Shown here piece after piece: positions 6,285 to 20,906 of a stretch of DNA of 20,906 bases. Numbering within the stretch: the stretch's first letter is position 1; each line of letters starts with the position of its first letter. A program made the translations under genes and the position numbers. This DNA is from a virus, in IMG/VR virus record IMGVR_UViG_3300031569_000050, positions 1 through 20,906 of that record; one strand, written 5' to 3'. Under the pieces are notes generated by a model. The model did no database searches. It was not told the DNA's origin and saw only the letters and a list, made by a program, of their open reading frames with translations.

Positions 6285-6928
6285 TATATTATTCTAACTA
6301 ACGCTTGTCTTGGCCCAAACATTTCATATCTATATTTTATATTATTATTATTTACAAACTCTTGCCAAGCCTTAAATTCACCATATTTCCAACCCACATA
6401 ACTAATATATTCATCAAATAAAATTATAGTATTGGGGACAAATCTTTTTGAACCTATAATATTTAAAGCTTCTAAAGTAGATTCATATGTATCACTATCT
6501 ACATGTAAAAAAGAAATATTTTCATCATGTGTGGTAAAAAAATCAGGCATGGTATCTTTAAAAAATCCTTTTATTAATTTAACATTATTATTAACCAAAG
6601 GTAATTTACCATCTAAAGAATAATATCCTTTTGAAAAAAATCCCCCTTTCCAATCTTCTTGGAAACCTATAAAACTATCAAACCCATACCAAATTTTTTC
6701 AGGTTTATTTTTTGAAAAAAAATTAATGCTGGTTCCTGTAAAAACACCTAATTCTAAACATAATCCATCTACCTCTATTTTAGAAATAGCGGTAGCCCAC
6801 CACCCGCAATCTGTTATTACAGCTTCCGATATATATTTTCTAATATATTCTGCAGATTCTTTTGCAGCTTCTTCATATAAAATATCATAGGCATCTCTAT
6901 TTGCAGGAGCTCCATCTTTTTTATGCAT
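6284..6928 (-). CDS. TylF/macrocin-type SAM-dependent O-methyltransferase (island gene 1)
   Basis: A 214-residue class I methyltransferase. 'LCLELGVFTGTSINFFSK' (57-73) is the SAM-binding motif I, and 'WYGFDSFIGFQEDW' (80-93) is the typical acidic second strand. 'ISFLHVDSDTYESTLEAL' (138-155) and 'NTIILFDEYISYVGWKYGEF' (166-185) carry acidic residues in the places of TylF metal ligands (Asp144, Asp172, Glu173). TylF relatives O-methylate sugars or small molecules. No DPPY/NPPY or Pro-Cys motif is present, so it is not a typical DNA methylase. As the promoter-proximal gene it begins 34-40 bases after the promoter at 6968-6996. Family call firm; substrate unknown. Confidence 0.85.
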   Translation of the reverse strand: MHKKDGAPANRDAYDILYEEAAKESAEYIRKYISEAVITDCGWWATAISKIEVDGLCLELGVFTGTSINFFSKNKPEKIWYGFDSFIGFQEDWKGGFFSKGYYSLDGKLPLVNNNVKLIKGFFKDTMPDFFTTHDENISFLHVDSDTYESTLEALNIIGSKRFVPNTIILFDEYISYVGWKYGEFKAWQEFVNNNNIKYRYEMFGPRQALVRII

Positions 6929-6967
6929 AATTTTCTGTTATTTTCTCGCTTTCATTATCTATATATT

Positions 6968-6996
6968 ACTATATAAGGTTTATTAAAGAATTTCAA
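6968..6996 (-). promoter_or_regulatory. Sigma70-like promoter of the leftward oxygenase/methyltransferase island
   Basis: On the minus strand, TTGAAA (6996-6991, five of six to TTGACA) is followed by exactly 17 bases and TATAGT (6973-6968, five of six to TATAAT). Transcription would start near 6961, giving a leader of about 33 bases before the methyltransferase ATG at 6928. It lies in the 79-base divergent gap between island and virion genes, the only gap upstream of the island. No equally good element is seen on the plus strand. Confidence 0.65.
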
Positions 6997-7007
6997 CAGG
7001 TTTTTAT

Positions 7008-9191
7008 ATGTTACAAAAATTAGGCTTTGCTCCAGGATTTAATAAACAAGTTACCGAAACAGGCGCTGAAGGTCAGTGGTTTGATGGTGATAATGTGCGT
7101 TTTAGATATGGCTCACCAGAAAAAATAGGTGGTTGGGAGCAGTTAGGTAGCAATAAGTTAACCGGTGCCGCAAGAGCTATACACAACTGGGATAATAATG
7201 TAGGTATAAAATATTCTGCAATTGGCACTAATAGAATTCTTTATGTTTTTTCAGACGGTCTTTACTATGACATCCATCCGATAAGAACTACAATTACTGG
7301 AGCAAATTTTACAAGTACAGCAGGATCACCAACAGTCACAATAACTGTTTCTTCTAACCATGGTTTATTAGATAATGATATAGTATTATTCGATGCTGTT
7401 TCTGGATTATCTGGGTCTACTTTTACAAACGCTACGTTTGAAGATGAAAAATTTATGGTAACTTCTGTACCAAGTAGTACCACTTTTACAATTACAATGG
7501 ATACTAATGAAGCCGGCACACCTGTGACTAATGCTGGTTCTGCTTCTGTTCTTTGTTATTATAGTGTAGGACCTGCTACACAGGAATCAGGGTTTGGTTG
7601 GAGTTCAGGGTTATTTGGTGGCGAGGTAAACGGGGCCGTAACCAATACTCTTGCTTCTACTATAAATGATGCTGTAACAAATATTCCTTTAACTAACTCA
7701 TCAACTTTTCCGGCATCGGGGACCATAAGAATAGGGACTGAAGATATATCTTACACAGCAAATAACACAGGAACAAATACTTTAAGTGGTGGGGCAAGAG
7801 AAGTTAATGGCACTACAAAATCTGCCCACAGTGGTGGTGCGACAGTCACAAATATTACAGATTTTAATGGATGGGGCGAAGCTTCATCAACTACACAGTT
7901 TACACTTAACCCTGGTTTATGGGTTCTTGATAATTTTGGTACAAAATTAATTGCTCTTATATATAATGGAGAATGTTTTGAATGGGATGGATCGGTTACA
8001 GATGCATTAACTACTCGGGCAACAATTATATCTGGAGCACCAACAGCATCACGTCACATGATAGTATCAACTCCGGATAGACACTTAGTTTTTTTTGGAA
8101 CAGAAACTACTATTGGTGATAAAACTACACAAGACGACATGTTTATAAGATTCTCTGACCAAGAAAATATCAACGAGTACACCATAAGAGCAGAAAATAC
8201 AGCAGGTTCTCAAAGGCTTGCTGCAGGATCTAAGATTATGTCTGCTATTAAAGGTAGGGATGCTCTTTATGTATGGACCGACACTGCATTATTTTTAATG
8301 CAATTTGTAGGTCAACCTTTTACTTTTGCATTTCAACAAGCAGGGACTAACTGTGGATTGATTGGCAAGAATGCCTGTATTGAAGTTGATGGCTCAGCTT
8401 ATTGGATGTCAGACAATGGTTTTTTTAACTATGATGGTCAGTTAAGATCGATGCCTTGTCTAGTAGAGGATTTTGTTTACTCCGTAGATCCCGGACTCGG
8501 ACTCAATAATACAACTAGAGATTTGATTAACGCAGGTATTAATAATCTTTTTGGAGAGATAAATTGGTTCTATTGTTCAGCTACAGCTACTTCGGTCGAT
8601 AGAGTGGTTAGCTATAATTATGTAGATTCTACAACTGAAAGACCTATTTGGACAACGGGGTCGTTAAATAGATCTGCTTGGGTAGATTCTGCTGTATACG
8701 AAAAACCTCATGCAACACTTTATAATGCCGACGATAACGCCTCTTATGATGTTACTGGAAACGTAGACGGAAGTAGTATATACTATCAACACGAAACAGG
8801 GACCGATCAAGTTAATGCCGGCAATGTTGTTACTGCTGTTAATGCCAACATTCTTTCCGGTGATTTTGATATTACTCAAAAAAGAAGTAATACAGGTCAA
8901 GCGGTAGGGACTCCTGATCTTAGAGGAGATGGTGAATATATGATGAGGATAAGTAGATTTATACCAGATTTCATAGAACAAACAGGTGATACTGAAGTTA
9001 GTTTTACAACAAGAAATTATCCAAATACCGCTGCAACAACTACAAATTTTACATCGACCGAAACTACAAATTTTAAAAGCACTAGACTTAGAGCTAGATC
9101 AATTGCACTAAAAGTATCCAATACAGGTACAGGAAAAAATTGGAAACTCGGTACATTTAGATTAGACATTGCACCAGGAGGAATGAGATAA
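7008..9191 (+). CDS. Large tail/stabilisation-like virion protein
   Basis: A 727-residue protein starting MLQKLGFAPGFNKQVTETGA, a beginning I recognise from marine podovirus contigs. The frame 'GQWFDGDNVRFRYGSPEKIGGWEQL' (22-46), then scattered blade-like repeats ('LYVWTDTALFLMQFVG', 'YWMSDNGFFNYDGQL'), resemble beta-propeller tail proteins such as P22 gp10, which plugs packaged DNA; this link is an inference. Residues about 95-285 look like inserted beta domains, including 'FPASGTIRIGTEDISYT' and 'GTTKSAHSGGATV'. That insertion would account for the size, larger than P22 gp10. The ribosome binding site is weak (CAGG). The stop forms TAATG with the next gene. Confidence 0.6.
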   Translation: MLQKLGFAPGFNKQVTETGAEGQWFDGDNVRFRYGSPEKIGGWEQLGSNKLTGAARAIHNWDNNVGIKYSAIGTNRILYVFSDGLYYDIHPIRTTITGANFTSTAGSPTVTITVSSNHGLLDNDIVLFDAVSGLSGSTFTNATFEDEKFMVTSVPSSTTFTITMDTNEAGTPVTNAGSASVLCYYSVGPATQESGFGWSSGLFGGEVNGAVTNTLASTINDAVTNIPLTNSSTFPASGTIRIGTEDISYTANNTGTNTLSGGAREVNGTTKSAHSGGATVTNITDFNGWGEASSTTQFTLNPGLWVLDNFGTKLIALIYNGECFEWDGSVTDALTTRATIISGAPTASRHMIVSTPDRHLVFFGTETTIGDKTTQDDMFIRFSDQENINEYTIRAENTAGSQRLAAGSKIMSAIKGRDALYVWTDTALFLMQFVGQPFTFAFQQAGTNCGLIGKNACIEVDGSAYWMSDNGFFNYDGQLRSMPCLVEDFVYSVDPGLGLNNTTRDLINAGINNLFGEINWFYCSATATSVDRVVSYNYVDSTTERPIWTTGSLNRSAWVDSAVYEKPHATLYNADDNASYDVTGNVDGSSIYYQHETGTDQVNAGNVVTAVNANILSGDFDITQKRSNTGQAVGTPDLRGDGEYMMRISRFIPDFIEQTGDTEVSFTTRNYPNTAATTTNFTSTETTNFKSTRLRARSIALKVSNTGTGKNWKLGTFRLDIAPGGMR
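9176..9181 (+). promoter_or_regulatory. Perfect Shine-Dalgarno AGGAGG
   Basis: AGGAGG lies nine bases before the ATG at 9191 and inside the last codons of the upstream gene. It is the strongest ribosome binding site in the window and, with the TAATG overlap, points to high expression of the 9191 gene. Confidence 0.75.
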
Positions 9192-18805: not shown

Positions 18806-19291
18806 ATGCAATTATCGAAACATTTTACTCTTGAAGAGATGACACGGTCTATGACTGCTGTACGTAAAGGAATTGACAACATTCCAGGGCCCGGGGAGAT
18901 TAAAAACCTAGGAAACCTCTGTTATGAGGTCTTAGAGCCCGTTAGAGCACACTTCGACAAAGCTATAAGCATTAGCTCGGGATACCGCTCAGAAGCGTTG
19001 TGCGTAGCGATAGGAAGCAAAAAAACCTCACAGCACGCACTTGGGTGTGCTGCCGACTTTGAAATTAATTCTGTGCCCAATATTCAGGTTGCTTACTGGT
19101 TGACTAACAACGTTGACTTTGATCAATGCATTCTCGAGTATTATAAACCCGAAGATGATCAGGCGGGATGGATACACGTATCTTATGATGAAAAAGGATC
19201 TAACAGAAAACAAATACTTACCTTTGATGGTAAAAAATACACCGAAGGTTTACCAGAAATGAAATGGTCTGGTGGTAAAGTAGTTGGTTAA
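18806..19291 (+). CDS. M15-family peptidase endolysin
   Basis: A 161-residue single-domain peptidase of the M15A kind (PF08291 type), cutting cell-wall peptide cross-links at lysis. 'ISISSGYRSEAL' (55-66) is followed by the zinc-site motif S-x-H-x-x-G-x-A-x-D in 'SQHALGCAADFE' (His77, Asp84). 'GWIHVSYDEK' supplies the third ligand His124. Glu111 in 'ILEYY' is the likely catalytic base. The N-terminal 'LSKHFTLEEMTRS' is typical of the family. No signal peptide, so release through the preceding holin-like protein is expected. No Shine-Dalgarno is visible. The middle is richer in G+C than its neighbours. Its stop overlaps the converging helicase stop. Confidence 0.9.
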   Translation: MQLSKHFTLEEMTRSMTAVRKGIDNIPGPGEIKNLGNLCYEVLEPVRAHFDKAISISSGYRSEALCVAIGSKKTSQHALGCAADFEINSVPNIQVAYWLTNNVDFDQCILEYYKPEDDQAGWIHVSYDEKGSNRKQILTFDGKKYTEGLPEMKWSGGKVVG

Positions 19292-20730
19292 ATCCAATCT
19301 TTGAGTTGTTCACCCATAATCTGACTAGCTATATTAACTTTCTTTTTAAGAGCCTTAACAATTCTAGCATCAACAGTATTCTCACAATAAATATCTATGT
19401 ATGTCATAGGATACTTCTGACCAATACGATCTATCCTTGCTTCTGATTGTTGTCTCTTCTCAAGATCATAACCATTAGAATAATATACCATAGTAGACGC
19501 TGCAGTTAATGTAATACCGTAACCACCGGTCTGTGTTGTACCAATAAAGAATCTTACAGGCGAATCTGGATCTTGGAACTTCTTAATATTGTCTTGACGG
19601 TCTTTCATAGGAGTCAATCCATAATAATCTACAAAACTATTTGCGCCATATTTTTTAGATATCTCCCGGATTATCCTACTAACATCTCTTTGCCAGTGGG
19701 CCCATATAACAATCTTACCTTCTACTTCTTCTAATACATTCATTAGTTCTGGTAATCTGTTTGAGTCTAGATCTTTGATAGTCCCATCATCAGCAGTAAA
19801 ATGACCACAAGTAATTTGTTGCAATCTCATTAGCTGAGTCATAACTGTAGCTGTAGTCATCATCTTGTCATCCATTTGAGCAAGAGCTAAATTTTTCATT
19901 TGTAGATAAAGTTTTTTCTGTTCTGCACTTAGTGTAACAAGACGTTTAATAAAAGTCTTAGGTGGCAGATCTAAACAATCGTCTTTTAATACTCTATAAG
20001 AAAATGCTTTTAATTTTTCTGACAACTCTGGAAGATGTTGATAGCCTGTAACTATTTGTACGGACTTACCACCAAAATTAGCTGTTTTCATAACTGCATA
20101 TCTAGTTCTAAATGTATAGTAAGAAGTGTGTCCCAATAATTCTTTTTTAAGAAACTCACATTGTTTATATAAATCTAATGGTGATTTAGTAACAGGAGAT
20201 CCAGTAAGTATTCTTCTATATGAAGCATGTTCAGCAAGAGAACATATATGTTTAGTTCTTTTAGCATCTGGGTTTTTAATAGTAGTGGACTCATCTATAG
20301 CCATCATAGTTCTATGACATCTTAAAAACTTAGCCGCAAAACTAACACCTTTTGCAGTAGAGAAAGCTTCTACATTCATCATAAGAATATGTAAATCTTC
20401 ACCTGGTTTAAATAATGAATCTAATTCTAACTGTTGTTTTTTATTAGGTAAAGGATTCCACAACACAGAAGTTTTTTCAATGTGGTCTGGTAAGTGTGTA
20501 GGAATCTCTCCTTCATACCAGTTTTTATAAACACCTTTAGGTGCAATAATTAATACACCATTAATTTTTCCAGTATCATATAACATTGCAATGTTATCAA
20601 TTAATACTTTTGATTTACCTGTACCCATTTCCATAAAATATGCAAAGTACGGTTTATCCCATGATAACTCTAATGCTTTTATTTGATGCGCATAAGGCTT
20701 AGTCTTAAACTTATAGTTTTTTATTTCCAT
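19288..20730 (-). CDS. SNF2-type DEAD/DEAH-box helicase
   Basis: A 480-residue two-domain superfamily 2 ATPase with all main motifs: 'PYAHQ' (12-16), Walker A 'MEMGTGKS' (33-40), motif Ia 'LIIAPKG' (60-66), Walker B 'AIDEST' (144-149), and motif III 'ILTGSPVTKSPLDLYKQ' (174-190). Motif V is 'TQTGGYGITLTAAS' (399-412) and VI is 'QQSEARIDRIGQK' (427-439), whose RIGQ is characteristic of SNF2 proteins. Phage members probably act in replication, recombination or chromatin-free DNA remodelling; the specific role is unknown. It is leftward, opposite to the lysis genes it meets tail to tail, and is served by the palindromic promoter region. The start has only a weak AGAAG ribosome binding site. Confidence 0.9.
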   Translation of the reverse strand: MEIKNYKFKTKPYAHQIKALELSWDKPYFAYFMEMGTGKSKVLIDNIAMLYDTGKINGVLIIAPKGVYKNWYEGEIPTHLPDHIEKTSVLWNPLPNKKQQLELDSLFKPGEDLHILMMNVEAFSTAKGVSFAAKFLRCHRTMMAIDESTTIKNPDAKRTKHICSLAEHASYRRILTGSPVTKSPLDLYKQCEFLKKELLGHTSYYTFRTRYAVMKTANFGGKSVQIVTGYQHLPELSEKLKAFSYRVLKDDCLDLPPKTFIKRLVTLSAEQKKLYLQMKNLALAQMDDKMMTTATVMTQLMRLQQITCGHFTADDGTIKDLDSNRLPELMNVLEEVEGKIVIWAHWQRDVSRIIREISKKYGANSFVDYYGLTPMKDRQDNIKKFQDPDSPVRFFIGTTQTGGYGITLTAASTMVYYSNGYDLEKRQQSEARIDRIGQKYPMTYIDIYCENTVDARIVKALKKKVNIASQIMGEQLKDWI

Positions 20731-20749
20731 TTTATTTTCTTCTTTCTAG

Positions 20750-20778
20750 TTGACATCTTATATAGAACATCCTATATA
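20750..20778 (+). promoter_or_regulatory. Rightward promoter in the palindrome
   Basis: TTGACA (20750-20755, perfect -35), 17 bases, TATATA (20773-20778). Transcription would begin about 20785, only two bases or so before the ATG at 20787, implying a nearly leaderless message. Confidence 0.5.
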
Positions 20779-20787
20779 CATTGTCAA
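20759..20787 (-). promoter_or_regulatory. Leftward promoter of the helicase in the palindrome
   Basis: On the minus strand TTGACA (20787-20782), 17 bases, TATATA (20764-20759). Start near 20752 gives a leader of about 22 bases to the helicase ATG at 20730, with AGAAGAAAA as a weak ribosome binding site. Confidence 0.55.
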
Positions 20788-20906
20788 TGACAGAAAGCAA
20801 AAAAATAGTATACGTAATTCAAGAGTTACCAGGTACAAAAGCAGGTGCTCCTAAAATTAATATTATGAGTGCGAGCAAGTATGGTGAGTTTAAATTTTTA
20901 CTTCCA
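20787..20906 (+). CDS. Start of an unrecognised gene (3' truncated)
   Basis: The frame from ATG 20787 is open to the window end and gives 40 residues starting MTESKKIVYVIQELPGTKAG and continuing with 'PKINIMSASKYGEFKFLLP'. I recall similar short N-termini in marine phage genes of unknown function, which is not enough for a name. It diverges from the helicase and begins inside the palindromic promoter, with no ribosome binding site; it may be translated as a leaderless message. An in-frame TTG lies at 20781 but the ATG is preferred. Confidence 0.55.
   Translation, partial: MTESKKIVYVIQELPGTKAGAPKINIMSASKYGEFKFLLP

Follow-up and report, generated by a model that had tools for sequence, protein, structure and literature searches.

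The bacterial regulatory elements closest to the one analysed here are the bidirectional promoters described by Warman, Grainger and Wade, in which, according to the accessible part of PMC12825309, pseudo-symmetric DNA carries divergent sigma-70 promoters and engages one polymerase in either orientation, with -10 elements that are shared or overlapping and transcription starts that mostly lie 10, 18 or 23 bp apart. Operator-controlled divergent promoters offer a second comparison: at the E. coli bioA/bioB locus, overlapping promoters face each other at a palindromic site between divergent genes. This pair is also listed in PMC12825309. Two aspects of alphaproteobacterial transcription also bear on the comparison. 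The sigma-70 consensus of S. meliloti is given in the accessible text of PMC2873474 as CTTGAC-N17-CTATAT, and the part of PMC7566282 that could be consulted uses, for Zymomonas, a working definition of leaderless transcripts as those with a leader of 5 nt or less. A literature search retrieved no paper on palindromic, mutually exclusive overlapping divergent promoters.

In this study, we have analysed a 20,906-base fragment of an HTVC023P-type (pelagiphage-related) podovirus, hereafter the window, in which a short palindrome, TTGACATCTTATATAGAACATCCTATATACATTGTCAA (20750-20787), separates a helicase gene from a gene transcribed in the opposite direction, here called the rightward gene (Table 1). 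Among named phages, Pelagibacter phage HTVC027P and phage 023Pt_psg01 are the closest, with a helicase identity of 65%, and by analogy with these related phages the host would be SAR11 or a relative. Each strand carries a complete -35/-10 pair between the divergent genes, and the predicted footprints overlap if RNA polymerase is given its generally accepted extent, as in overlapping divergent sigma-70 promoters. The element departs from the Warman type in that its -10 boxes are separate and placed in each other's spacers, both -35 boxes are near-consensus, and the predicted starts are about 33-36 bp apart; neither a shared -10 nor a 10-, 18- or 23-bp start spacing is found. The palindrome of bioA/bioB is an operator bound by BirA, whereas nothing outside the -35 hexamers of the present element has the symmetry of an operator, and no regulator was found. 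It matches the alphaproteobacterial housekeeping promoter exactly on both strands and differs from it in that two copies are interlocked; likewise, the predicted rightward leader falls within the limit for alphaproteobacterial leaderless transcripts, the difference being that AGAAAG follows the ATG instead of preceding it. We consider it probable that the element is a compact two-way promoter for the host housekeeping RNA polymerase, whose symmetry comes from the promoters and not from an operator. Judged by its sequence, it is an interlocked form of the already known overlapping divergent promoters.

Table 1. Position of the element, its parts and the flanking genes in the window
Feature	Position	Strand	Remarks
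Putative interlocked divergent sigma-70-type promoter pair, imperfect palindrome, 38 bp	20750..20787	both	TTGACA-N17-TATATA and TTGAC-N17-CTATAT on each strand; kept in relatives
Rightward promoter -35, TTGACA	20750..20755	+	would also lie over the predicted helicase-transcript start region (dual role suggested by spacing)
Rightward promoter -10, (C)TATATA	20773..20778	+	17-nt spacer
Helicase promoter -35, TTGACA	20782..20787 (reads 20787-20782)	-	would also lie over the predicted rightward start region; covers the A of the rightward ATG
Helicase promoter -10, (C)TATATA	20759..20764 (reads 20764-20759)	-	17-nt spacer
Shine-Dalgarno-like AGAAAGAAG of helicase mRNA	20739..20747	-	AGAAAG 1-4 nt past the arm in 85/88 distinct elements
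Helicase, 480 aa, SNF2-related domain and Helicase_C	19288..20730, ATG at 20730	-	phrog_62, 1.2e-118; PF00176, PF00271
Rightward gene, first 40 codons, Pam3_gp32-like	20787..20906, ATG 20787-20789	+	PF23992, phrog_5888

Two interlocked promoter sequences between divergent genes

The initial annotation of this DNA had read TTGACA-N17-TATATA on both strands over the same 38 bases, and the window sequence bears this out. The two-fold symmetry of the palindrome is incomplete: pairing holds for the 6-nt arms and the TATATA blocks and fails at positions 7-9/30-32 and at two pairs in the centre. The -10 of each promoter sits inside the spacer of the opposite one, and the two -10 boxes are 14 bp apart and do not overlap. 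Spacing predicts a start at 20752 on the minus strand and, 7 nt past the -10, at about 20785 on the plus strand. The two near-consensus promoters would thereby interlock head to head, each -35 (TTGACA, or TGTCAA on the opposite strand) covering the start region of the other, and the palindrome would result from overlaying two strong promoters of identical sequence, with no protein operator behind it. The start codons of the two genes are 56 bp apart, and the rightward ATG has one base in common with the right arm.

Such an arrangement is not expected by chance from the composition of the window. Chance expectations were taken from 400 first-order Markov windows, and TTGAC-N17-CTATAT, the consensus of S. 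meliloti, has two exact matches in the window, both in the element and one per strand, against an expected 0.0125. The arm pattern TTGAC-N28-GTCAA was found once, with 0.025 expected from the same Markov windows. When two mismatches are allowed, TTGACA-N17-TATATA occurs 6 times in the window and 6.04 times on average in shuffles, so the surplus resides only in the two perfect sites of the element, which are the only perfect ones in the whole window. A search of viral contigs for the fully symmetric 38-bp pattern gave 6 exact matches, each of them next to a member of this helicase family, and a slightly looser version found nothing in the genomes of 84,980 species of bacteria and archaea. Because the element is also conserved in relatives, as described below, a chance origin is untenable.

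The same consensus is used elsewhere in these phages. In 26 window-type records (those closest to the window by helicase), TTGAC-N17-CTATAT has 23 matches, 17 of them at the element and 6 elsewhere, compared with a single match for a reversed-pattern control. All 6 of the other copies lie directly upstream of an ORF, which suggests that the consensus also serves as an ordinary one-way promoter. In five of them, two of which have the same sequence, an AGAAAGG-type site is present and the ATG follows the -10 by 20-25 nt; in the sixth (L351), one ATG comes 7 nt after the -10 and another lies behind AAAGGAG. A second set of TTGAC-N17-CTATA(T/A) sites was noted in G001 (L345:14902), G002:40564, G006:20276, G007:2815, G003:24228, G005:13082 and G029:297; most share a common ATATCCTATA stretch, and they lead small genes, the majority with AGAAAGG ribosome sites. 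From these sequences, they are likely to be early promoters of the phage group.

The rightward ORF is cut by the window end after 40 codons, and intact relatives of the window clade encode 118-131 aa. In relatives it is the first gene of the replication operon (order taken from HTVC027P and genome G001); in HTVC027P the operon has the rightward gene first and runs gp01-gp02-gp03-primase-gp05-helicase-(three small genes)-DNA polymerase A. This divergent order is not shared by every phage: helicase and gp32 point in the same direction in phage Pam3, and DSL-LC04 has the divergent arrangement. As for the rightward protein itself, a full-length PF23992 relative (L003:1059-1421, minus strand) has a predicted fold with a pLDDT of 79. 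Its top structural hits in the PDB are, with few exceptions, CARF/SAVED domains of cyclic-nucleotide receptors or ring nucleases (Foldseek, lowest E 0.011; VIA-align, highest Z 8.2 to Cap5, rmsd 3.0, 105 aligned; rank 50 Z 5.9), and comparison with PDB sequences gave no match. The modelled fold could indicate a phage counter-defence or signalling protein, but a Z near 8 may reflect just a common Rossmann arrangement.

Two further features of the window were noted. The segment 4078-6928 is a leftward block of low G+C (about 26% versus 36-40%) that encodes two 2OG-Fe(II) oxygenase-like proteins and one methyltransferase-like protein, and is probably acquired cargo. Next to it, at 6928-7008, another divergent gene pair is separated by a short gap with TATATA and TATATAAG blocks and no consensus -35 pair.

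Conservation of the element in related phages

Relatives were collected by four helicase scans and six pattern-matched loci, giving 326 loci (323 with helicase) that were typed by the best-matching query. Conservation was counted in loci with at least 110 nt upstream, the arms being defined as TTGAC...GTCAA 36-39 nt across, and a few contigs are present twice in the counts. Arms were found upstream of the helicase, at the same helicase/replication-operon junction, in 78/79 window-type loci and in 76/80 loci of a second clade, the psg01-type, so the palindrome that the initial annotation had proposed to look for in related phages is indeed there. The only window-type locus outside this definition, L002, has both arms at a span of 33 nt, and on visual reading each direction can still be assigned a -10-like box. 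Four psg01-type loci lack the arms, and the three of these that were listed (L100, L141 and L154) carry a different upstream sequence. Within long records the arm pattern occurs once per genome at the junction (16/16), one record having an additional match elsewhere.

The palindrome is absent from HTVC027P-type (0/77) and HTVC023P-type (0/78) loci. In most of the HTVC027P-type loci listed, the helicase promoter is present as TTGACT-N17-TATATA with an ATG directly past that -35; the other arm is lost, and the rightward promoter is rebuilt with a normal leader. In HTVC023P-type loci, which lack the palindrome, a strong ribosome site of the AAGGAGG type is usually seen. The loss of one arm with retention of the other promoter, which had been named beforehand as evidence against a shared element, does therefore occur between clades, in the HTVC027P-type, and was not seen within the clade of the window.

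What is held by selection was assessed in 88 distinct elements (45 window-type and 43 psg01-type) of 91, leaving out the chance one-mismatch elements L208, L211 and L042. The helicase -35 reads TTGACA in 44/45 window-type and 42/43 psg01-type elements, its -10 reads TATATA in 31/45 and 40/43, and its spacer is 17 nt in 43/45 and 36/43, respectively. The rightward -35 is TTGACA in 34 of the 45 window-type elements (TTGACT in 11) and in 41 of the 43 psg01-type ones; the rightward -10 is TATATT, TATATA, TATATG or TATATC in 40/45 window-type elements and is weaker in part of the psg01-type. The initial annotation had assigned the same bases to a helicase promoter and to a promoter of the rightward gene, and both are conserved across relatives.

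Pairwise mismatch among window-type loci (2108 pairs from 77 loci, the pairs not being independent) is 0.007 at the helicase -35 and 0.078 at the rightward -35, with reference values of 0.49 at four-fold helicase sites and 0.61 at the spacer centre, which evolves at a rate like that of neutral sites. For the best -10 boxes it is 0.083 and 0.127; reading the rightward -10 at a fixed 17-nt spacer gave 0.433, which is too high for 37-nt elements, and the best-box reading was used instead. The contrast between the boxes and the spacer centre is large, and indicates that the promoter boxes are held as the remainder drifts.

Operator, single promoter or origin

The initial annotation had suggested that a dimer binding the palindrome might control both genes, and the symmetry could indeed be that of an operator for a dimeric phage (or host) regulator that shuts or selects both promoters. 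The outer arms are near-perfect and stand at a fixed distance, 37 or 38 nt in 86/88 distinct elements, which is as uniform as an operator would be and counts against a promoter reading. So does the psg01-type, where the rightward -10 drifts (0.342) and the rightward -35 arm is nearly invariant (0.009), so that this arm could have another function. A candidate small regulator is a 57-aa protein of G001 (L345:15616-15786), ribbon-helix-helix-like by eye and without a Pfam or PHROGs match; among 39 mostly small G001 proteins, no helix-turn-helix family appeared in the 25 listed of 50 matched Pfam families.

The inner sequence, however, does not behave as an operator. In a covariation test, complementary cells at the inner symmetric pairs did not exceed the shuffle mean in the 38-nt window-type (128 vs 128.0, 18 elements), the 37-nt window-type (76 vs 87.4, 26 elements) or the 37-nt psg01-type (131 vs 171.3, 40 elements), and most elements have the 37-nt form, in which the TATA blocks miss two-fold register by one base. 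There is a single copy per genome, the palindrome is missing from the HTVC027P and HTVC023P clades, with the helicase promoter kept in at least the HTVC027P-type, and the 33-nt spacing of L002 still allows two promoter-like readings by eye. Dimer binding thus finds little support, and we regard an operator as improbable.

In part of the psg01-type the rightward -10 is a poor one, and it might also be argued that the helicase promoter is the single active one, with a second arm that is a by-product or has another role and a rightward gene that is read from elsewhere. In the window clade, however, the rightward -35 and -10 are conserved and the ATG stays at the arm edge, and a further rightward promoter would hardly fit between the two start codons; we regard this reading as very improbable. 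That the dyad heads the replication operon might suggest a replication origin or a site for an initiator protein, but GC skew has the same sign on both sides in HTVC027P and G001, no iterated repeats were seen nearby, and conservation tracks the promoter boxes; an origin is extremely unlikely.

Predicted transcript leaders and polymerase occupancy

With the element taken as a two-way promoter, a polymerase facing left would produce the helicase mRNA, with a leader of about 21 nt and an AGAAAG ribosome site, part of the Shine-Dalgarno-like sequence listed in Table 1, which is presumably complementary to the 3' end of 16S rRNA. AGAAAG is also found near 5/61 annotated HTVC027P starts, where 0.9 would be expected. 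A polymerase facing right would, in the window clade, give a replication-operon mRNA that begins at the ATG or a few bases from it. In this way, a single 38-bp site would supply both transcription units with no need for a regulator, and how much each receives would depend on how strong its promoter is relative to the other.

The position of the rightward ATG supports such a short leader. In window-type loci its offset from the arm is -1 in 64/80, +1 in 7 and +2 in 5, and 2/80 have an additional in-frame ATG at -7 (about 6 nt upstream) followed by the usual one; with these two included, 78/80 loci have the ATG at the edge of the arm or 2-3 bases beyond, and a start could be placed in 79/80. The predicted leader is 0-3 nt in the window (start 7 nt past the -10) and at most 5 nt across the window clade, and the nearly leaderless rightward transcript put forward in the initial annotation is thus predicted from a spacing that is conserved in the clade. 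In the psg01-type, the rightward ATG is mostly 10 or more nt past the arm. One locus, L031, has one base fewer than its relatives, which leaves the arm-edge ATG out of frame and an in-frame start at +10; this may be a genuine shift or an error in the sequence.

On the rightward side of window-type loci, AGAAAG comes after the ATG (window 20792-20797), 5 nt past its A. An extension of the DNA palindrome was considered for this motif and rejected, because its position is fixed to the ATG and it moves with it (arm offsets 4, 6 and 7). The serine at codon 4 is encoded by AGY in 22/22 distinct rightward sequences (L031 left out), as against 60/329 elsewhere; AGY is one step from AGA, which is commoner at codon 4, and common descent can explain the excess.

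At a promoter, RNA polymerase covers the DNA from -55 to +20. On that basis both footprints fall on the same 75 bp, which would leave room for one polymerase at a time. The proposal that two polymerases cannot use the element together is consistent with this geometry and with the steric rule of one polymerase at a time stated for bidirectional promoters in the accessible part of PMC12825309. The further idea, that helicase and rightward gene are mutually exclusive, does not follow, as single occupancy would mean taking turns: alternation is expected, not exclusion. In the same portion of PMC12825309, five E. coli bidirectional promoters were tested, and their basal activity proved too low for appreciable competition between the two directions. 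The near-consensus promoters of the present element could compete more than these basal E. coli ones.

Single occupancy might also be used as a timing switch, with the helicase and the replication operon expressed in different infection phases and traffic one way silencing the other. The coincidence of the footprints would allow it, and at E. coli bidirectional promoters activating one direction can repress the other (PMC12825309, accessible part), but the lack of basal competition in the five promoters speaks against it, as does the fact that no activator site or biased strength was seen, the two promoters of the window clade being similarly close to the consensus. We consider a timing switch unlikely. 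A point on the other side, against the two-way promoter itself, is that the accessible text on HTVC027P RNA-seq (PMC12753301) describes all early genes as being of unknown function, and there is thus no support from that phage, which does not have the palindrome, for strong immediate transcription of the helicase.

Beyond the reading as a two-way promoter, the sequence leaves some room, though we hold this as doubtful, for an undescribed self-switching promoter, in which the -35 boxes would double as the opposite starts and polymerase would be forced to choose without a regulator, yielding a leaderless mRNA with its ribosome-binding sequence behind the AUG, and which selection would have kept in pelagiphage-related phages.

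HTVC023P-type phages are widespread in the ocean, according to the accessible part of PMC9599517, where neither promoters nor palindromes are mentioned; the corresponding part of the HTVC027P transcriptome paper (PMC12753301) does not mention promoters either. For these phages, the element provides a defined, testable promoter and, from its spacing, a predicted conserved leaderless phage mRNA. It would also be a natural case of two near-consensus promoters bound to compete for polymerase, unlike the E. coli promoters tested, whose resting activity is too low for competition.
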